A stretch of DNA of 8,314 nucleotides from Bacilli bacterium (GTDB lineage Bacteria; Bacillota_I; Bacilli_A; RFN20; CAG-826), in assembly GCA_024693415.1 (NCBI GenBank), contig JAILKX010000050.1, forward strand, positions 1 through 8,314, read 5' to 3'. Positions 820 to 8,314 of the stretch are shown here, one piece after another; the stretch's first letter is position 1, and each line of letters begins with the position of its first letter. A program made the position numbers and the translations under genes. A model generated the notes under the pieces. That model made no database searches. It was not told where the DNA came from and saw nothing but the letters and a program-made list of their open reading frames with translations.

Positions 820-861
820 GTGGTGCCGAGCCGGAAAAGACCTTCCCCGGTTCGGCCTCAC
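820..861 (+). promoter_or_regulatory. GC-rich leader hairpin before the operon
   Basis: GCCGAGCCGG (825-834) pairs with CCGGTTCGGC (847-856) over 10 bp with one G-U pair. GTGG (820-823) pairs further with TCAC (858-861, one G-U) across a single mismatch. The loop is 12 nt. No U-tract follows, so it is not an ordinary terminator. It ends 2 nt before the AAGGAGGT ribosome binding site (864-871) and may stabilise the 5' end or control access to the site. No known riboswitch class is recognised. Confidence 0.6.
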
Positions 862-876
862 ACAAGGAGGTAATCC

Positions 877-1614
877 ATGAAAATCAGAAGATTGTTCCTA
901 GCGGCGTCGGCGGCCCTATTGGCCTCATGCGACTTCGGCGGCACCTCGCCAAAGACATTCGGCCTATTCGGCCACAAAGGCGTCTACCTTACGGAGCACG
1001 CTGAGGCTGAGATCACGCTCTCGGAAGCAAAGCGGCTCGTCAACATGTCCTCATCCAGCGCAGCCCGTTTGCAGAAGCGGAGCGAGCTCAGCGAAGAGGA
1101 CCCGGCCGTTAAATCGATATTGGCAAGGTTCGGCTCGCTCGGCGTCTCGGCCGCCTATTACATCGACGGCTCAGAGGAAAGGCAGGTCAGGACCGACCTA
1201 TACCAAGGCACCGACTTCCTCTATCTGCTGAAGGAGAACACCTATTTCCCCTTCGCGCAGATGAACGTCAAATACATTTACATCGACGGCTCCCTCCTCG
1301 ACAGCCTTGAAGAGGAGAATGCGAAGTTCCGCGAGGACCCTACCAATTTGGTCAGCCCGTTTGTGAATCCCTACACCTATCATCGCGATGCGCAGGGCGA
1401 GCTCGTGCTGCAGACCCATCATTTCGCCGAACTCCCGTCCAGCGTGAACGGCGGGATCGGGGCGACCTTCCGCCAGGACTGCGAGCTGAGCTATGACGGC
1501 GAGGGAAAACTGAAGCACTGGCAGTCATCGTTAGGGCTCTATACCTCGACCCCGACCGGCACATCGCTTGAGGGCTATATCTTCGAGGCCACCTTCGAGT
1601 GGACGCTGAAATAA
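877..1614 (+). CDS. Secreted lipoprotein, first gene of the kinase/vWA/PP2C operon
   Basis: A 245-residue protein with a classical lipoprotein signal: M-K-I-R-R, a hydrophobic stretch to about residue 15, and a lipobox L-A-S-C with the lipid-carrying cysteine at 18. The mature part (about 227 residues) has no further membrane span and appears as mixed alpha/beta, with a Ser-rich linker (58-62), several Tyr-rich beta-like segments and a final F-E-A-T-F-E-W-T-L-K strand. I do not recognise a family; it resembles the many unassigned lipoproteins of Firmicutes. The start is secure, with AAGGAGGT (864-871) 5 nt before the ATG. Its stop lies 12 nt before the next start, so it belongs to the same transcript as the signalling genes. 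By inference it is the outward-facing part of the system, a possible sensor or anchor on the cell surface. Confidence 0.8.
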   Translation: MKIRRLFLAASAALLASCDFGGTSPKTFGLFGHKGVYLTEHAEAEITLSEAKRLVNMSSSSAARLQKRSELSEEDPAVKSILARFGSLGVSAAYYIDGSEERQVRTDLYQGTDFLYLLKENTYFPFAQMNVKYIYIDGSLLDSLEEENAKFREDPTNLVSPFVNPYTYHRDAQGELVLQTHHFAELPSSVNGGIGATFRQDCELSYDGEGKLKHWQSSLGLYTSTPTGTSLEGYIFEATFEWTLK

Positions 1615-1626
1615 GGGGGTACGTGT

Positions 1627-1743
1627 ATGAAATTCCTGGGATACGCATTCGTCGCGCTTGCGTTAGTCGCCGGCGGAATCGTCATCGTCAAGACCGGCCT
1701 GTGGGACGCCTTTGTGAATTGGGTGACCTCATGGGTCCATTGA
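1627..1743 (+). CDS. 38-residue single-pass membrane microprotein
   Basis: A small gene with a good ribosome binding site (AGGGGG at 1614-1619, 7 nt before the ATG). The product begins M-K-F-L-G-Y and has one hydrophobic segment from about residue 4 to 21, rich in A/V/L/I/G, followed by K22 and a short amphipathic tail with three tryptophans (W26, W32, W36). It is fitted between the lipoprotein (12 nt upstream) and the 150-residue gene (11 nt downstream), each with its own ribosome binding site, which argues that it is real. The charge pattern suggests a transmembrane helix with the Trp-rich tail lying at the membrane surface; an uncleaved signal anchor is another reading. No family is recognised. 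A role as membrane partner of the lipoprotein or of the cytosolic signalling proteins is inference. Confidence 0.7.
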   Translation: MKFLGYAFVALALVAGGIVIVKTGLWDAFVNWVTSWVH

Positions 1744-1754
1744 GGGGGACTTGC

Positions 1755-2207
1755 ATGTTCGCGGTATTAGAAGACGTGCTTGACCGTTTCGAGGCCCGCG
1801 GCCATCACCCGACGAAGATCCATAGCTTTGGGTCCAAGATGGGGATGGACAACTACGAGTTCGACTTCGATCTCGGCGAGGGTGTCTACTTCAAATTCAT
1901 CCACCATCACCGGAAGAGCAGGAAGCCCTTCCGTCGGGCAAAGCAAGAGGAAAGCGTCTCGTTGACCCTTGGGGTCGTAACCCGGCCTAGCCCCGCTAAG
2001 CAGATGCTCGACCTTATCCGCTCCAGCGATGCCTATGCGTTCTTCGACGCGATGAGCTTCGACGAAAAGGGCTTGGCCCTATTAAAGATCGATGTGGATG
2101 AGCCAGGCGGCAAAAGCGAATCAATCGCCGCCTTAATCGATGCCCTCGAAAGGCCGGTTGGCCCGATCTGGGCGCTTATAAAACAACTTCAGGAGGCAAA
2201 ACCATGA
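1755..2207 (+). CDS. 150-residue cytosolic protein, possibly YbjN/secretion-chaperone-like fold
   Basis: Start chosen at the ATG with GAGGGGGA (1742-1749) 5 nt before it; in-frame codons further upstream run through the microprotein gene and are not used. The product has an N-terminal helix (about 1-17), beta-like segments (33-50, with a H-H-H at 50-52), a basic stretch (R53-K63), another strand (67-76), a helix (80-99), a strand (104-115) and a C-terminal helical region (120-148). This alpha-beta-alpha-beta-alpha order is reminiscent of the YbjN / type III chaperone-like fold, but I see no diagnostic motif, so that is only a suggestion. No signal peptide is present. Its TGA overlaps the kinase ATG (ATGA), so the two are translationally coupled, which hints that the product acts with the kinase, perhaps as an adaptor. 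Confidence 0.75.
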   Translation: MFAVLEDVLDRFEARGHHPTKIHSFGSKMGMDNYEFDFDLGEGVYFKFIHHHRKSRKPFRRAKQEESVSLTLGVVTRPSPAKQMLDLIRSSDAYAFFDAMSFDEKGLALLKIDVDEPGGKSESIAALIDALERPVGPIWALIKQLQEAKP

Positions 2208-3523
2208 AATTCGCCAAAGGCGATCAATTCCAATACAACGGCAAGACCGTAACGATCCTCGACGTCCTCGGGGATGGCGGGCAAGGCGAGGTCTACCTCG
2301 TCGACAACGCCAGCCAGAAGCTCGCGTTCAAGATCTATAAGGACGCGGTGAGCGACGACTTCCGCTACAACCTCAAGAACAACATCGCCAAGGGCTCGCC
2401 TTCGCCGAACTTCCTCTGGCCGAAGGAGTTCATCGAATTCGAGGACGGCGATTGCGGCTACATGATGGACCTGCGCGGCAAGGAATACGCATCGTTCGTG
2501 TCCTATTTGACCGGCAAGACCCGCTTCAAGTCGAAGGCCCTGATGCTCAATTGGTGCATCGAGCTCGTCAAAAGCTTCAAGGACCTTCACGCCAGGGGAT
2601 TCTCCTACCAGGACCTCAATGACGGCAGCTTCTTCCTGAACCCCGATAACGGCAAAATCCTGATCTGCGATAACGACAATGTCACCGCCGACAAGCGAAG
2701 CCTCGGGGTGCTCGGCAAGATGCGCTACATGGCGCCCGAGATCGTACGCGGGGACAAGGATAGGCTGACCGGCGACCGCCAGATGCCAGACGTCCATAGC
2801 GACCGCTTCTCGCTCGCCGTGATCCTCTTCCTTGCGATGTGCCTTGGGAATCCCTTCGAAGGGGAACACCTCAAAAAGTACGTCATCGTCGACGAAAAGG
2901 CGGAATCCGAGATGTTCGGGACCAACCCCGTCTACATCTATAGCGAAGACGATAAGTCCAATCGCCCGATCCGGGGATACCACACCGCGGTCCTCAAGCG
3001 TTACCCGAGCCTTCCGAGCTACATCAAGTCCGCCTTCCACAAGACCTTCGTGGACGGATTGAAGGACCGCGAGAACTCAAGGACCACCGAGCTTGAGTGG
3101 ATAAGGCTGCTGTGCCGCTACCGCGATGAGCTGCTCACCTGCTCCTGCGGCGAGGAGTACATCTACGGCTTCGACGAGAGGAAGCATAACCTCAAGTGCC
3201 CGAACTGCCATCAGGCGACCAGAAGGTTCTGCTGCCTTCACATCGGGAAGTCGCGTATCCTCCTCGAGCCCGGGAAATACGTCTACCAGTCGCACATCGA
3301 CAAATACTCAAGCGACTATAACCGCCCAATCGGCAAGGTGATCGCCAACAAGAAGAACCCCGGCCTATGGGGCGTCTTGCTCGACTTGCCTTCCCCGATC
3401 CTCATCAAGGACGCCAAAGGCGCTGAAAAACAGATCGCCGGCAATGGCGTCATCCCCATCATCAACAACCTCAAAATCAAGTTCGGCGACAACGCGATCG
3501 CCGAGATCATCTGCGAAAACTGA
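2204..3523 (+). CDS. Ser/Thr protein kinase with C-terminal zinc ribbon (TerY-P type)
   Basis: A 439-residue protein. The kinase domain (about 10-305) shows a glycine loop L-G-D-G-G-Q-G-E-V-Y (22-31), the ATP-binding lysine K43 in A-F-K, a catalytic loop Y-Q-D-L-N-D-G-S (135-142) with catalytic D137, a D-N-D (156-158) where most kinases have DFG, an M-A-P-E (176-179) and D-R-F-S (200-203). The residue at the usual metal-binding Asn (+5 from D137) is S142, and the usual Lys at +2 is N139. This variant active site, with the conserved-looking I-C-D-N-D-N-V segment, fits the divergent bacterial kinases linked with TerY/PP2C genes rather than PknB-type receptors. A zinc ribbon follows (C313, C315, C332, C335; C343-C344 nearby), then a beta-rich tail (350-439) with I-G-K-V and N-P-G-L-W-G segments resembling an FHA-like sandwich. 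There is no membrane span. Ribosome binding site AGGAGG is at 2191-2196. Expected role: cytosolic phosphorylation of partners encoded nearby, reversed by the PP2C. Confidence 0.88.
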   Translation: MKFAKGDQFQYNGKTVTILDVLGDGGQGEVYLVDNASQKLAFKIYKDAVSDDFRYNLKNNIAKGSPSPNFLWPKEFIEFEDGDCGYMMDLRGKEYASFVSYLTGKTRFKSKALMLNWCIELVKSFKDLHARGFSYQDLNDGSFFLNPDNGKILICDNDNVTADKRSLGVLGKMRYMAPEIVRGDKDRLTGDRQMPDVHSDRFSLAVILFLAMCLGNPFEGEHLKKYVIVDEKAESEMFGTNPVYIYSEDDKSNRPIRGYHTAVLKRYPSLPSYIKSAFHKTFVDGLKDRENSRTTELEWIRLLCRYRDELLTCSCGEEYIYGFDERKHNLKCPNCHQATRRFCCLHIGKSRILLEPGKYVYQSHIDKYSSDYNRPIGKVIANKKNPGLWGVLLDLPSPILIKDAKGAEKQIAGNGVIPIINNLKIKFGDNAIAEIICEN

Positions 3524-3543
3524 ATTGAAAGGAGCATAGACAG

Positions 3544-4266
3544 ATGGAAGACAAAATGTACGACGGCATCAGGAAGCAAGAGCTGAATCTCATCTTCGTG
3601 ATCGACAATTCCGGATCGATGCAGGGCGAGAAGATCGGCGCGGTCAACAACGCCATCCGCGACGTCATGACCATCATGCCGGAAATCCAAGACGATACGA
3701 GCGACGCCGAGATCAAGATCTCCGCCCTCACCTTCAGCGACGGCACCAAATGGGTCTACAAAGATCCCCAGGTGGTCGCCGACTTCAAGTGGACCGACAT
3801 CGGCACCGAAGGCGGGACCGATTACTCGAAGTGCTACGACGAATTGACGAAGTTCCTCTGCAAGAGGGAAAACGGCGGCAAGATGCCCGACATCGGCGGC
3901 GTTGCCCCGATCATCATCCTTATGTCCGATGGCATGCCGACCTCCCCCGATTGGGAGATGCATCTCGATTCCCTGCGCAAGAAGGGCTGGTTCAAGGTCG
4001 CCTTGAAGTACGCCCTCGCGATCGGCATCGACACCCAGGAAGCCAATGACGTCCTATCGAAGTTCACCGGCAACCCGGAGACCGTCCTCAAGGTCTACAC
4101 CGCCGAGGCGCTCCGCAAGGTGATCAAGGTCATCGCGATCACCGCGAGCAAGGTCAAATCCTCGTCCAGCCAGATGAGGTCGAATGGCGCTGCCGTCTCC
4201 CAAGACGAGCAGGCCGTCCAAGAGATCAACAAGGGCTTAGAGGAAATCGCCGACGTCGAGTGGTGA
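3544..4266 (+). CDS. TerY-like vWA domain protein 1
   Basis: A 240-residue protein almost entirely made of a von Willebrand A domain. The metal-ion-dependent adhesion site is complete: D21-x-S23-x-S25 in D-N-S-G-S-M, T92 in G-G-T-D, and D129 in M-S-D-G-M-P-T. The segment G-G-V-A-P-I-I-I-L (118-126) leads into the last motif and is shared with the next gene. After the domain comes a Ser-rich stretch (K-S-S-S-S-Q, 205-210) and a C-terminal helix ending in D-V-E-W. This fits TerY, the vWA protein that travels with a kinase and a PP2C. Such proteins are thought to bind divalent metal and scaffold protein contacts. AAAGGAG (3528-3534) lies 9 nt before the chosen ATG; an ATG at 3556 is also possible. 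The gene starts 20 nt after the kinase stop. Confidence 0.88.
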   Translation: MEDKMYDGIRKQELNLIFVIDNSGSMQGEKIGAVNNAIRDVMTIMPEIQDDTSDAEIKISALTFSDGTKWVYKDPQVVADFKWTDIGTEGGTDYSKCYDELTKFLCKRENGGKMPDIGGVAPIIILMSDGMPTSPDWEMHLDSLRKKGWFKVALKYALAIGIDTQEANDVLSKFTGNPETVLKVYTAEALRKVIKVIAITASKVKSSSSQMRSNGAAVSQDEQAVQEINKGLEEIADVEW

Positions 4267-4277
4267 GGAGGTGCGAC

Positions 4278-4991
4278 ATGGACGAAGAAAGAATCGCCAA
4301 GCAGCGCCTGAACATCATGCTCTTGGTCGACGCATCCAAGTCGATGCAGGGCAAGCGCATCAAGCAGGTTGACCAGGCCATCTCAGACATTCAGGTCTAC
4401 CTCAAGGATCTGCAGGCCGAGAACTCCAACGTCGACTTCTACATCACGATCATCCCGTTCAATAACGACGGCTTCTTCTATGGGAACGCCCAATCGACGA
4501 ATATCGATGATCTGAAGTATGACGGGATCAAGTGCGGCGGATGGAGCAACCTGCACTGCGCCTATGCCCGCCTTGGGGAGATCCTCCACCGCGAGTCCAA
4601 AGGCGGTATCATGCCGGATTTCGGAGGCGTCGCCCCGATCGTGTTGCTGCTGACCGATGGCCATCCGACCGGGAATACCTACAAAGAGGAGCTCGAAAAG
4701 CTGCAGAAGCTCGCCTGGTTCAAGGCGGCGCTCCGCTACGGAATCGCGATCGAGCTGAACGATGACAGAACCATGCAGGTCCTCCATGAATTCGTGGGCA
4801 ATAACGGCGACGTCATCTCGGTCTATGACTCGTCGATGCTCAAAAACATCATCAAGATCATCGTCCTGACTGCATCGAAGGTGAAATCGACGACCTCAAA
4901 CGTCGCCTACAAGCCTCAGCAGACCCAGAACGAGATCGCGCAGCAGGAGATCGCCGAGGCCCTTGCCGATACCGAGAGTTGGGAGTGGTAG
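4278..4991 (+). CDS. TerY-like vWA domain protein 2 (paralogue of the preceding gene)
   Basis: A 237-residue paralogue of the upstream vWA protein. The metal site is D18-x-S20-x-S22 (D-A-S-K-S-M), S90 in G-G-W-S-N-L taking the place of the threonine, and D127 in L-T-D-G-H-P-T. The two proteins share M-P-D-[IF]-G-G-V-A-P, the W-F-K-[VA]-A-L-[KR]-Y segment, T-A-S-K-V-K-S and an ending in E-W, but they differ widely elsewhere, so the duplication is old. A Ser/Thr-rich patch (K-S-T-T-S, 203-207) follows the domain as in its sister. The ATG at 4278 is used because AGGAGG (4266-4271) lies 6 nt before it; an in-frame GTG at 4260 would overlap the upstream gene. The gap from the sister gene is 11 nt. 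The two may pair as a heterodimer or present different partners to the kinase and phosphatase; this is inference. Confidence 0.87.
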   Translation: MDEERIAKQRLNIMLLVDASKSMQGKRIKQVDQAISDIQVYLKDLQAENSNVDFYITIIPFNNDGFFYGNAQSTNIDDLKYDGIKCGGWSNLHCAYARLGEILHRESKGGIMPDFGGVAPIVLLLTDGHPTGNTYKEELEKLQKLAWFKAALRYGIAIELNDDRTMQVLHEFVGNNGDVISVYDSSMLKNIIKIIVLTASKVKSTTSNVAYKPQQTQNEIAQQEIAEALADTESWEW

Positions 4992-4993
4992 GT

Positions 4994-5815
4994 ATGATTC
5001 ATACTTTCTCTAGATCCTGCCGCGGCTACGCTCATATGAAAAGCGGATTGCCGTGCCAGGATTATAGCCTCGATTACCATGACGCCGAGCGGACGATCAT
5101 CGCCTGCTGCGATGGCCACGGCGGAGCGCGGTATATCCGCAGCGACCGCGGATCCAGATTCGCCTGCGAGGCGGTGCTCAACGTCTTCAAGGGACTCGCC
5201 CCATCCTTCCTATATAAATATAAGGATAAGGAGGCTGAGGACCGGATCAGGATGGAATTGCTCTGCGAGTGGAACAAGCTCGTCGAGCGCGACATCGCCA
5301 ATCATCCCTTCACCAAGAAGGAGCTGGAATCCCTAAGCGAAGACGACCGCGAAGCCTTGATGCTCAATCGGGCCAAGGCCTATGGGACGACCATGACCGG
5401 GGCGCTATTGCTCAGCGGGAAGCTCGTGGTCGCCGGGATCGGCGATTCCGAGTGCCTCCTCATCAATAAGGGCGAGGCGGAGCGGCCGCTTGAGCGCGAA
5501 AGCGATCCCGCGGGCAACATCACATATTCGCTTTGCCAGGACGACGCCTATTCCTATATCAGGGCAGCGGTGGTGAATTTCTACCAATACGATGGGGTGG
5601 TGCTGTGCACAGATGGGTTCTCTGGCCCTTATCAGAGCTATGAGAACATGAAGGAATCGTTCCTGAAGCCTCTCGTCAAGAAGACGCTTTGGGGACGCTC
5701 GGCGGAGCAGGTCCATGAGTTCGTGGGCCTGCTCGCCGAGAAGAAGGGCACCGGGGATGATGTGAGCATCGCCTACATCATCGACGGAAGCGCTTCGATC
5801 AAACACTACGAATAA
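4994..5815 (+). CDS. PP2C-family Ser/Thr protein phosphatase
   Basis: A 273-residue single-domain metal-dependent phosphatase. The family motifs are present in order: Q22-D23 in C-Q-D-Y, D40-G-H-G-G, G131-T-T-M-T-G, A-G-I-G-D151-S, C-T-D207-G-F-S-G, and G-T-G-D255-D256-V-S. The acidic metal ligands therefore look intact and the enzyme should be active. The insertion between D-G-H-G-G and G-T-T (about 60-128) is helical and charged. No membrane span or sensor domain is attached. The gene starts 2 nt after the vWA 2 stop; GGGAG (4981-4985) lies 8 nt before the ATG. An in-frame TTG at 4979 would lie inside the upstream gene and is not preferred. Together with the kinase it should form a phosphorylation switch, with substrates probably encoded in this operon. 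Confidence 0.92.
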   Translation: MIHTFSRSCRGYAHMKSGLPCQDYSLDYHDAERTIIACCDGHGGARYIRSDRGSRFACEAVLNVFKGLAPSFLYKYKDKEAEDRIRMELLCEWNKLVERDIANHPFTKKELESLSEDDREALMLNRAKAYGTTMTGALLLSGKLVVAGIGDSECLLINKGEAERPLERESDPAGNITYSLCQDDAYSYIRAAVVNFYQYDGVVLCTDGFSGPYQSYENMKESFLKPLVKKTLWGRSAEQVHEFVGLLAEKKGTGDDVSIAYIIDGSASIKHYE

Positions 5816-5827
5816 GGAGGAATGGGT

Positions 5828-6940
5828 ATGGATTACCGCGATGCGGTTAGGGAATTCGAAAGGCGACACGGGCTCTCCGGCTTTGCCAATCGGTTCTTGG
5901 TCCGTTCCATTCTCTCCGACTGCGTGGGGGCGTCGGTGACCGATAAGCGGCTCATCGACGCCCTGTTTGAGCTTTCGCTTATCTTTGATGTGGTGGCCGA
6001 ATTCCAATCCGTTGGCTTAAACAAAGGCCGGAAAAAGGTCGCGGAGCTCTATGACGCGAACGCTTCCTTGAATGGGCGTTTCTCGACCCGCGAGGTGATC
6101 GACGCCGTGAACCCGATCACCGAGCTCGTTTGCCCCTCGGAATTCAAATCCTCCAGAGGCAAGCGCAATAAGAAAGCGGGCGGGGCGGTCGTCGTCAAGA
6201 AGCAGCGCTCCGAGCACGTTGGGCGCAATACGCCATTGATCCATAAGTCCGCTCCTATCCCGCAGAAGGCAACGCCGCCCAAAAAAGCCTCTCCCGCCAA
6301 GCGGACGGCAGCTATCGACAACATCACGCTCAGCGTCAACGCCGCTTTCTTTACCATGGCCGAAACCGACGACAAGCAGCTGTCGGTGCTGATAGACGGA
6401 AAACGGATGAAACTCGATTCCAGCCACCTGTCGGTCACGGGCGATGGCCTCGTCATCCCGATCGATTCGCCGAGGTCGGACGTCAGGCTCGTCTTGCCCA
6501 AAAAGCGTTACGACACCGTGACCATCGCCGCCGGCGACACCAATATCTTCTATAATGGGACGAATGATAAAAGAATGCGGTTCAAGAACCTTCGGCTCTC
6601 CGCCAGGAGGGGCGTGATCTACGTATCGGCGATCGGCGAATCGCTCGATATTCAACTCGATCAGGGAAACATCACGATCGGCGGCGATTTCGCCAAAGCG
6701 AACGCCCAGGTCCAATCCGGATTGATTTCCGTCCACATGTGGAATCGTCTGCACAAGGATGTGTCGCTGAACCTCATGGCGAAGCACGGCAAGATCTCGG
6801 GCGGGTTCTTCCAAGGAAAGCTCAAGCCAAGCTTCCATAGATTCATGAGGAAGACCTATGCGGTCCAACAGATTTGCATGGCTGAGAACGTGAGGGTGGA
6901 CCTCAACCTCAAGGCTGGGAACGGAATCTCGCTCAAATAG
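5828..6940 (+). CDS. Helical-domain / DUF4097-like beta-repeat fusion protein
   Basis: A 370-residue protein with three parts. Residues 1-100 are a helical domain (D-A-V-R-E-F-E-R-R-H-G at 5-15; R-S-I-L-S-D at 26-31; L-I-D-A-L at 42-46) of a style I associate with adaptor modules in Firmicutes accessory proteins, without a firm name. Residues 106-160 form a Lys/Arg/Pro-rich, Ser-containing linker that is probably disordered. Residues 163-370 are beta-rich, with repeats of about 20-25 residues each ending in a G-x-I turn (261-266, 280-285, 298-302, 321-325, 364-368), like the DUF4097 putative-adhesin beta-helix. No signal peptide is seen, so despite the family name it should be cytosolic. AAGGAGG (5814-5820) lies 7 nt before ATG 5828 and only 1 nt before the alternative ATG 5822, so 5828 is the start. 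It follows the PP2C by 12 nt and closes the operon; it may be the scaffold or effector that the phospho-switch acts on. Confidence 0.75.
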   Translation: MDYRDAVREFERRHGLSGFANRFLVRSILSDCVGASVTDKRLIDALFELSLIFDVVAEFQSVGLNKGRKKVAELYDANASLNGRFSTREVIDAVNPITELVCPSEFKSSRGKRNKKAGGAVVVKKQRSEHVGRNTPLIHKSAPIPQKATPPKKASPAKRTAAIDNITLSVNAAFFTMAETDDKQLSVLIDGKRMKLDSSHLSVTGDGLVIPIDSPRSDVRLVLPKKRYDTVTIAAGDTNIFYNGTNDKRMRFKNLRLSARRGVIYVSAIGESLDIQLDQGNITIGGDFAKANAQVQSGLISVHMWNRLHKDVSLNLMAKHGKISGGFFQGKLKPSFHRFMRKTYAVQQICMAENVRVDLNLKAGNGISLK

Positions 6941-6986: not shown

Positions 6987-7015
6987 TTGAAATCGATACA
7001 TTAAAAATGTATAGT
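6987..7015 (+). promoter_or_regulatory. Promoter of the WYL regulator gene
   Basis: TTGAAA (6987-6992) and TATAGT (7010-7015) are separated by exactly 17 bp, close to the sigma-70/sigma-A consensus (4 and 5 of 6 matches). Transcription would start near 7022, leaving a 5' leader of about 15 nt that contains the AAAGG ribosome binding site. The regulator can thus be expressed apart from the operon. Confidence 0.7.
6996..7012 (+). promoter_or_regulatory. Candidate operator palindrome in the WYL gene promoter
   Basis: ATACAT (6996-7001) and ATGTAT (7007-7012) form a perfect inverted repeat around a 5-bp A/T centre. It fills the -35/-10 spacer and runs into the -10 box. Its position is ideal for repression, most simply by the HTH-WYL protein encoded just downstream. 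No clear second copy is seen before the operon. Confidence 0.55.
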
Positions 7016-7036: not shown

Positions 7037-8011
7037 ATGGGGAAAGCTGCATCATGCATAGAGATGCTTTATCATCTCAATACCGGACGAGTCTATAAGG
7101 TCAGCGAGCTCGCCGATCTTTTGGATACTTCCCCAAGGAACGTCATCGAATACAAGAAAGAACTCGACGAAGCCCTGAGTCGAATCGACTATGGGGCCTT
7201 CATCAAATCGATTCCGGGGCGCTATGGCGGCTACCAATTGAATAAGAGCATCCTGCTCCCCACGCTCCAATTGCTTCCGGAACAGAAAGATGTGCTTAGG
7301 GAAGCCCTTGACTATATCATGACCAAGAAGGACTTCGTGAAGAAGAAGGAAGCGGAAGCGGTGTTCTCCAAAGTCCTCTCGAGCGTCGAAACGAAATACA
7401 AGGATCAGAAGCTTCAGGTGGTGGACCATTACCAGCTGACGATGGACCAGAAGGACATCGAGGAACGCTACCGATTCATCGAGGAGGCCATCGCTAAGAA
7501 GCGGGTCATCGAGATCGTCTACGAATCGACGGTCAACGGAACGAAGACCCATATCCTCCATCCCTATAAGTTATTCATCTACAACAACTCTTGGTTCTTC
7601 CATGCCCTGGTCCCAAGCGAGCAGAAGGTATGGCAGTTCAAAATCAACCGCATCAAGGAGATGAGGATGCTGGACCAGACCTTCCGGGTATGGGAAGGGT
7701 TCAAGCCAGAGGATTACTTCGATGGGAATGGGTTCACCAACAACGGCGGGTTCTACCATTGCGAGTTCATCGTCACCGGGATCCGCAGGCAGCTCTCAAA
7801 GGAAAGGGTCTACGGCAAAAACCAAGTGGTGGTGGACATCGATGACGAGCGGTCTCGGGTTACGATGGATATGCAGAACGAAGGCGCCATCGTGTCATAT
7901 ATCCTAGGATGCGGCAACGACATCGAGGTAATCGAGCCCAAGTGGGCGATCGATAGGATAAAGGAAGTCGCCGAGAACATCCTCGAAAAATATCAAACAG
8001 GCAAAGAATGA
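7037..8011 (+). CDS. HTH-WYL domain transcriptional regulator
   Basis: A 324-residue protein. An N-terminal winged helix-turn-helix (about 5-68) contains V-S-E-L-A-D-L-L-D (22-30) and a recognition-helix region T-S-P-R-N-V-I-E-Y (31-39), with a wing ending in G-R-Y-G-G-Y (61-66). A helical linker (80-150) leads to a WYL domain (about 143-215) with I-E-I-V-Y-E (158-163), H-P-Y-K-L (175-179), the signature W-F-F (186-188) in place of W-Y-L, and F-K-I-N-R-I (201-206). A WCX-like C-terminal part (about 238-318) follows. WYL regulators bind ligands, often nucleotides or nucleic acid, and frequently control phage-defence and other accessory loci; this is family knowledge. AAAGG (7025-7029) lies 7 nt before ATG 7037; an in-frame TTG at 7031 is too near that site. 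It has its own promoter and a candidate autoregulatory operator. Confidence 0.9.
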   Translation: MGKAASCIEMLYHLNTGRVYKVSELADLLDTSPRNVIEYKKELDEALSRIDYGAFIKSIPGRYGGYQLNKSILLPTLQLLPEQKDVLREALDYIMTKKDFVKKKEAEAVFSKVLSSVETKYKDQKLQVVDHYQLTMDQKDIEERYRFIEEAIAKKRVIEIVYESTVNGTKTHILHPYKLFIYNNSWFFHALVPSEQKVWQFKINRIKEMRMLDQTFRVWEGFKPEDYFDGNGFTNNGGFYHCEFIVTGIRRQLSKERVYGKNQVVVDIDDERSRVTMDMQNEGAIVSYILGCGNDIEVIEPKWAIDRIKEVAENILEKYQTGKE

Positions 8012-8118: not shown

Positions 8119-8314
8119 GGCCGCCTACTTAACCATGACGGGATCGAAATCGATCTTCTCGGTCTCGACCTTGTAGATGATCCTCACCAGCTTCCTCGCG
8201 CAGTGCGAGACGGCGACGCGGTGGGGCTTCCCCTCATCCCTCTTCTTCCTGTAGTAGTCGTAGAAGACCGAATTGCAGCAAAGGAGATACTCCGCGGCGT
8301 TCATCAGGACCCGC
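8081..8314 (-). mobile_element. IS110-family insertion sequence, right part only
   Basis: The element is recognised by its transposase tail and runs off the window. IS110 elements lack ordinary terminal inverted repeats and usually make no target duplication, so the inner boundary cannot be placed from one end. The start given here (8081) is only the beginning of the palindrome-rich stretch and is a guess. Confidence 0.4.
8125..8314 (-). CDS. IS110-family transposase, C-terminal fragment (cut by window end)
   Basis: Reading the minus strand from the window end gives 62 residues and a TAG stop (8125-8127). The fragment opens with R-V-L-M-N-A-A and contains N-S-V-F-Y-D-Y-Y-R-K-K-R-D-E-G-K-P-H-R-V (14-33) and A-R-K-L-V-R-I-I-Y (39-47), the typical end of the IS110/IS116/IS902 transposase domain: an N-x2-F-x2-Y-Y stretch, a K-P-H segment and K-L-x-R-I-I-Y. 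These DEDD-serine recombinases move their element by a bridge-RNA-guided route in the members studied. The gene is convergent with the WYL regulator. The frame is open to the window edge, so the gene may be intact outside. Confidence 0.82.
   Translation of the reverse strand, partial: RVLMNAAEYLLCCNSVFYDYYRKKRDEGKPHRVAVSHCARKLVRIIYKVETEKIDFDPVMVK

Follow-up and report, generated by a model that had tools for sequence, protein, structure and literature searches.

A TerY-P-type kinase, vWA and PP2C operon with lipoprotein, toastrack-like and WYL genes in a Bacilli bacterium

Gene content of the operon

The locus described here lies in an 8,314-nucleotide stretch of a Bacilli bacterium genome (contig JAILKX010000050.1, GenBank assembly GCA_024693415.1), hereafter called the window, and is an operon built around the parts of a TerY-P signalling set, namely a Ser/Thr kinase, two von Willebrand A (vWA) proteins and a PP2C phosphatase. 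Judged by reading frames, gaps and upstream sequences, positions 877 to 6940 form one transcription unit on the plus strand, in which a lipoprotein, a microprotein of 38 amino acids and a protein of 150 amino acids are followed by the kinase, vWA1, vWA2 and PP2C and then by a toastrack-like fusion protein; the gene for a WYL regulator begins after another 96 bases. From lipoprotein to fusion the intergenic gaps are 12, 11, -4, 20, 11, 2 and 12 bases. A preliminary description of this DNA had proposed a tight operon of these genes, and all of those it named were open where it had placed them, with gaps of -4 to 20 bases.

The kinase (2204-3523, plus strand) matched PF00069 with an E value of 1.1e-12, and its sequence matches in the PDB spanned residues 3-230 only, which is the kinase domain, with no match for the C-terminal domain. 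The Pfam zinc ribbon scored just 14.1 bits on this protein, with a cut-off of 27, and the ribbon was recognised instead by its residue pattern, as the cysteines C313, C315, C332 and C335 (CxC...CxxC) were invariant in 58 of 58 aligned rows. The TerY-like vWA1 (3544-4266, plus strand; PF00092, E 1e-7) has a complete metal-ion-dependent adhesion site (MIDAS; DxSxS, T, D), as do all 24 of its aligned relatives. In vWA2 (4278-4991, plus strand; PF00092, E 1e-7) the MIDAS threonine is replaced by serine, and the same serine was found in 18 of the 19 relatives with a readable motif (21 rows). The PP2C phosphatase (4994-5815, plus strand) gave the strongest of these matches (PF13672, E 4.3e-30). The triad genes are adjacent, with gaps of 20, 11 and 2 bases from the kinase through PP2C. 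Pfam, the MIDAS motifs and the zinc-ribbon cysteines thus bore out the earlier assignment of these genes to a TerY-P-type set, and the presence of the TerY-P parts is well supported by sequence. The remark that no TerD- or TerC-type gene is visible held as well, as no Ter family was found among the ten window frames scanned with Pfam.

The operon opens with a lipoprotein of 245 amino acids (877..1614, plus strand) whose lipobox cysteine, Cys18, is conserved. It is followed by the microprotein (1627..1743, plus strand), which has a single predicted membrane helix (Kyte-Doolittle maximum 2.5 over 19 residues), and by the protein of 150 amino acids (1755..2207, plus strand), whose stop codon overlaps the kinase start (ATGA). 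Pfam at an E value of 0.5 gave no family for any of the three. The lipoprotein has 69 relatives besides itself, and a fold comparison with LolA/LolB/LprG-like carriers gave a weak likeness that is compatible with other families too. For the 150-residue protein, a search of 5.8 billion proteins recovered only the protein itself. Its frame had a coding score of 0.207 per codon, 5.7 standard deviations above base-shuffled copies (-0.333 ± 0.095), so that it looks coding and its reading as non-coding was rejected. Because no relative was found, the membership of this orphan gene in the system rests solely on its position in the operon.

The last gene of the unit (5828-6940, plus strand) encodes a fusion protein of 370 amino acids with a conserved N-terminal domain and a toastrack-like beta domain (PF13349). 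Its DUF4097-like character, as claimed in the preliminary description, was matched when the window protein alone was scanned, but at 22.0 bits the score lay slightly under the curated cut-off of 22.9. Among 15 aligned rows of the N-terminal domain, the window included, 10 had no predicted membrane helix and 5 had 4 to 8. Since soluble or multi-pass ends are carried on a common N-terminal domain, there seem to be two ways in which this domain is linked to the membrane. The WYL-domain transcriptional regulator (7037-8011, plus strand; PF13280, PF25583) is preceded by a promoter-like TTGAAA-17-TATAGT at 6987-7015, although such sites are not above chance in the window.

Recurrence of the gene set in a kinase clade

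A search with the kinase scored 7998 candidates, 5002 of which were related to it at E 0.001. Gene neighbourhoods were compared in 85 loci, made up of 80 kept from 304 confirmed matches of one genome scan with the kinase alignment and of 5 viral contigs; as the scan kept 80 of 304 matches, further loci of the kind described below may exist. In 26 loci the kinase was 54-82% identical to that of the window. Their hosts are Bacilli, Clostridia and kin, among them Anaeroplasma and Acholeplasmatales (L005 and L025), and many come from samples whose names include rumen, rectum or cecum. In the 59 other loci the kinase was 30-42% identical, and vWA and PP2C were both matched in 48 of these. A tree of the window and 39 of the 85 loci (L001-L040 and L071, minus L020 and L022) placed the window inside the clade of close kinases with 100/100 support and paired it with L001 (99/90). 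The catalytic-loop asparagine of the kinase is replaced by serine in the window and in 25 of the 26 clade loci, and is asparagine in 54 of 54 other genome loci. The five viral contigs (L081, L082, L083, L084 and L085) carry TerY-P-like kinases, and three of them (L081, L082 and L084) have vWA and PP2C matches.

Much of the window's gene set recurs in this distinct kinase clade of Bacilli, Clostridia and close kin. Neighbours were counted with profiles built on the clade's own proteins, and vWA1 was found in 24 of the 26 loci; 22 loci have two vWA genes (one of them partial), and PP2C is likewise present in 22. Where PP2C was missing, the contigs of L010, L014 and L017 stop at that point, and in L022 a truncated kinase is followed by unrelated genes. 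The fusion-protein family was present in 18/26 clade loci (in L005, L012 and L015 as a short N-terminal part only), the lipoprotein in 5/26 and the microprotein in 3/26, compared to 0/59 of the other loci for each, and WYL was present in 14/26 compared to 3/59, in comparisons between genomes that are related and thus not independent, so that chance figures for them serve as no more than a guide. Many contigs end near the operon. When the counts were restricted to loci with at least 2.5 kb upstream and at least 5.5 kb downstream, the 17 remaining clade loci had the fusion-protein family in 15, WYL in 11, the lipoprotein in 3 and the microprotein in 3, compared to 0, 3, 0 and 0 in 27 other loci. 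A weak WYL match in L016 (E 7e-4, 9.4 kb away) was left out of both WYL counts (14 and 11).

Of the 14 clade loci with WYL, 12 have the gene downstream and on the same strand, L071 has it upstream, and L019 has it upstream and on the opposite strand. In the other loci, the three WYL genes sit 6 to 10 kb from the kinase. The regulator had been described as a flank. It is indeed there, but its recurrence makes it part of the conserved neighbourhood, and its reading as a mere flank was rejected. The lipoprotein gene is found 5' of the kinase in L001 and L007 and 3' of PP2C in L003, L011 and L021. Relatives of the microprotein lie 137-561 bases ahead of the kinase in L003, L006 and L021, and L007 has a membrane-type frame of 37 amino acids in the same position. 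The proposal that the head genes travel with the kinase/vWA/PP2C set was therefore upheld for the lipoprotein and the microprotein but not for the gene of 150 amino acids, for which no relative was found. Profile comparison of its product with the small kinase-adjacent proteins of L002, L005, L006, L017 and L019 gave no clear result either way, and the slots adjoining the kinase seem to vary fast. Small proteins are encoded directly 3' of the kinase at L002:1970-2575, L005:10897-11736 and L017:7550-7972; those of L005 and L017 resemble each other, and that of L002 had no Pfam match.

These counts bear on whether the operon is an ordinary stand-alone TerY-P anti-phage cassette, with the other head genes (lipoprotein, microprotein and orphan) carried along as passengers in a defence island. 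All triad parts are present, and the stand-alone TerY-P set is a reported anti-phage system according to PMC10889362 and PMC7699616. Against this explanation, the fusion-protein family and the lipoprotein recur in clade loci and in none of the 59 others, and we consider it unlikely. The lipoprotein pointed the same way in 279 genomes of one order (that of genome G001), among which the kinase was close (E below 1e-180) in 6 and distant in 3. With at most 9 candidates scored per genome, the lipoprotein profile gave four strong matches, all four in close-kinase genomes, and a fifth, weak match (E 3e-5) in the distant-kinase genome G097. The patchy distribution of close kinases, in 6 of 279 genomes, fits an accessory cassette.

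A further question was whether the operon is a plain part of a known Ter locus just outside the window. Of the genomes carrying the 26 clade loci, 20 were searched for TerD and 1 contained it (TerB and TerC were not searched in genomes), and in a sample of one Clostridia order it occurred in 8 of 267 genomes, which did not include G010, the sole close-kinase genome there. Because 19 of the 20 genomes of relatives lack TerD, the idea that the window cuts through an ordinary Ter locus was rejected, in agreement with the preliminary description. A role in metal or tellurite resistance, on the model of other Ter loci, is also very improbable on these counts and with no Ter family in the scanned frames, even though the zinc-ribbon pattern and the MIDAS sites are metal sites and the kinase is related to one from a true Ter locus. 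That locus, on an Azospirillum plasmid, carries four TerD, TerB, TerC, two vWA, TerY-C, PP2C and a kinase that is 22% identical to the window kinase (E 2e-17).

Proteasome-type peptidases and secreted proteins near related kinases

The neighbourhoods of the clade hold a gene family that was not found by its profile in the window's 8.3 kb. An HslV/BPH-like proteasome-type peptidase was present in 17/26 clade loci compared to 0/59 others (13 of 17 and 0 of 27 in the stricter subset), preceding the kinase in 15 loci and following PP2C in L008 and L009; examples are L001:8565-9194, L003:2678-3319, L013:7472-9750 and L024:6138-8408. These genes, about 190-215 amino acids and mostly 5' of the kinase, were first suspected to be TerD (cluster c4), which was rejected when Pfam showed them to be of the proteasome type. 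Three members were scanned, and PF00227 matched two of them, with nothing for that of L008. The family profile was closest in the PDB to BPH (E 6e-10) and HslV (E 4.5e-8), and by sequence we assign the relatives' peptidase to the proteasome superfamily. In total there were 34 copies over the 17 loci, with tandem arrays of two to four copies in 9 of them. Of 17 aligned copies, 14 had Ser/Thr right after the methionine together with Asp17, and 13 of these 14 had lysine at the place of the catalytic lysine (arginine in one); the remaining 3, second copies in tandem arrays, lacked both Ser/Thr1 and Asp17. An AAA+ ATPase family was found in 5/26 clade loci (L005:11756-12868, L010:1022-2167, L013:6310-7452, L017:2655-3857 and L024:1661-2815) compared to 1/59 others, and L024:2823-4136 encodes a further AAA+ protein with an M41 peptidase domain.

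These genes raise the possibility that the system is a phosphorylation-gated proteasome-like protease, in which kinase, vWA and PP2C would control the peptidase, sometimes with the AAA+ protein, and of which the window would hold a copy whose peptidase is lost or encoded elsewhere. The restriction of the peptidase to clade loci among the kinase loci compared, its conserved active-site residues and the AAA+ family argue for such a protease, as does its distribution in the order of G001, where the 6 close-kinase genomes account for 5 of the 9 that have a peptidase. However, the window itself has none, the L008 member escaped Pfam, the close-kinase genome G020 has no peptidase, and four of the nine peptidase genomes lack the close kinase, the peptidase being beside a cytosine methylase in G198 and near a helicase in G186, with two more such genomes. 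In the genome of L002 the peptidase lies on a separate contig, with another WYL gene and a putative AAA+ gene beside it. Taken together, we regard such a gated protease as unlikely. In the Clostridia order, the peptidase profile matched 143 of 267 genomes at E 0.001, reaching E 9e-14 outside G010 and falling below 1e-20 in G010 alone; most of these matches are presumed to be housekeeping HslV. In L099, L101, L102 and L103 the peptidase family is found without a close kinase nearby. It lies near a cytosine methylase in L099 and near a weakly vWA-like frame and a helicase in L102, and L103 has four weak-to-moderate copies in tandem.

The presence of the peptidase in 17 of the 26 relatives also makes it doubtful that the window holds a complete system, as the preliminary description had suggested. 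For the clade as a whole, we consider it possible but doubtful that it represents a new kind of bacterial system for immunity or envelope surveillance. A kinase/vWA/PP2C switch anchored in the membrane would then govern a proteasome-like peptidase (with AAA+ in some) and WYL-controlled surface proteins, and the window would belong to a branch with the peptidase missing or moved and with a fast-evolving orphan and microprotein beside the kinase. If the switch does govern the peptidase, this would provide genomic context for uncharacterised Firmicute proteasome homologues. A survey of proteasome homologues (PMC8665760) reports no function-suggesting genomic context and no co-occurring AAA+ partner for its 22 new families, and its text does not contain the words kinase, phosphatase or von Willebrand. 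The neighbourhood described here offers such context for a Firmicute family of the proteasome type. The Firmicute homologues FC1-FC5, BPH and HslV of that survey are alike in that the relatives' peptidase belongs to the same superfamily; the window has no such gene by profile.

Downstream of the operon, secreted and surface-type genes are frequent in the relatives. In a selection of downstream genes that was scanned, MACPF with Ig-like domains was found in L001 and L015, WHH nuclease ends in L006, L009 and L021, and metallo-beta-lactamase folds in L011 and L015. The genes with MACPF or WHH-nuclease domains are large and of secreted or lipoprotein type (L001:15741-19598, L015:15827-19732, L006:15936-18389, L009:10277-12694 and L021:16526-19015). 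By a simple home-made rule based on hydrophobicity and lipobox, 26 of 67 downstream genes of at least 150 amino acids in clade loci were secreted- or lipoprotein-like, compared to 5 of 63 upstream. Genes in the relatives' loci were called with a simple home-made caller, which missed some that the profile search recovered. These domains and the downstream bias would agree with a surface or antagonism module, in which secreted proteins of the MACPF, WHH-nuclease and metallo-beta-lactamase-fold types, used against rival cells, would be under the control of WYL and the phospho-switch. Such neighbours, however, differ between loci in the scanned selection and none is present in the window, and we judge a module of this kind quite improbable.

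Relation to known systems and proposed function

The closest described relatives of the operon are TerY-P sets. The TerY-P triad as described in PMC11090510 shares with the window the adjacent genes for a vWA with MIDAS, a PP2C and a Ser/Thr kinase with the zinc-ribbon pattern, and some Type III-A CoCoNuTs in the same paper likewise have two vWA genes, the second with an altered MIDAS threonine. In contrast to the triad described there, the window has no Ter or restriction genes but has a lipoprotein, a microprotein, a toastrack-like fusion and WYL. The stand-alone TerY-P anti-phage system (Gao 2020, as presented in PMC7699616, PMC10889362 and PMC11090510) is similar in having kinase, vWA and PP2C without Ter genes. 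It is described there as three genes, whereas the window operon has several extra recurring genes, and its kinase has an OB-fold according to PMC11090510, whereas the window kinase has the zinc-ribbon pattern. Activity against T7-like phages or Autographiviridae is reported for it in PMC7699616 and PMC10889362. A TerY-P-like locus on the Prevotella plasmid NZ_CP091789 has a kinase 39.6% identical to that of the window with vWA and PP2C adjoining, but it has one vWA and a separate TerY-C metal-binding gene, and no toastrack, lipoprotein or WYL is annotated there. Phage-shock toastrack systems, as described in PMC11237479, resemble the window in combining a toastrack domain with membrane proteins and a transcription regulator. 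Their partners are PspC, LiaI/LiaF-type or two-component proteins, in contrast to the kinase/vWA/PP2C and WYL of the window, and the text of that paper, which proposes toastrack as a sub-membrane signalling scaffold, mentions neither vWA nor WYL.

The preliminary description knew of no report of this variant. Stand-alone TerY-P defence had in fact already been published in the papers just cited, but we did not find the gene set in titles and starts of abstracts among the papers listed, in a search that covered neither most subscription papers nor the original TerY-P paper. What appears to be new is the recurring membrane-linked and WYL-linked gene set.

Our preferred reading, which we put forward tentatively, is that the operon encodes a variant TerY-P phospho-switch, without TerD and attached to the membrane, which senses attack on the envelope and signals to WYL and surface genes. 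The lipoprotein and microprotein would report the state of the cell surface, and the fusion protein, with its multi-pass membrane end in some relatives, would tether the complex to the membrane. The kinase and PP2C could set the phosphorylation of the vWA adaptors or of the orphan protein, and the signal might pass to WYL and to the surface or secreted genes that adjoin it in several relatives. The likeliest role would then be protection against envelope attack by phage or rival cells. We favour protection because stand-alone TerY-P is reported to be protective in PMC10889362 and PMC7699616, and because the distribution is patchy and several neighbours resemble weapons or surface genes. The identity of the operon is well supported, as are the presence and grouping of its genes; every step of its function we infer.

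In this clade the TerY-P switch comes with definite membrane components and a regulator and, at 17 of 26 loci, with a proteasome-like peptidase, which opens both its input and its output to tests of single genes. To our knowledge, what TerY-P switches sense and what they act on is not known.

Searches with general collections added little to this picture. PADLOC matched the kinase with several models (mad6, PD-T4-6 and C3a189 among others) and WYL with WYL/Cas3c, and gave no vWA or PP2C match, although the presence of a TerY-P model in PADLOC was not checked. Rfam gave no match for the window, and a phage-collection search gave a single match that was weak and partial. At the downstream end of the window, the IS110 element of the preliminary description was confirmed by plasmid records, as 8 of 8 listed among 26 matching records are annotated as IS110 transposase, but it is a C-terminal fragment only (8125-8313, minus strand) on which Pfam is silent. 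Upstream, a gene of the ATC-hydrolase type (L-2-amino-thiazoline-4-carboxylate hydrolase; 68-691, PF14196) ends 185 bases before the operon, and the start of the operon was placed at 877 because this gap and a terminator-like stem at 717-734 separate the two; 13 such stems were found in the scan compared to 9.4 expected. A hairpin without a T-run, seen by eye, lies directly before the first gene (825..856, arms 825-834 and 847-856). The start region of the ATC-hydrolase-type gene contains a 20-base inverted repeat (85%) at positions 3-22 and 57-76.

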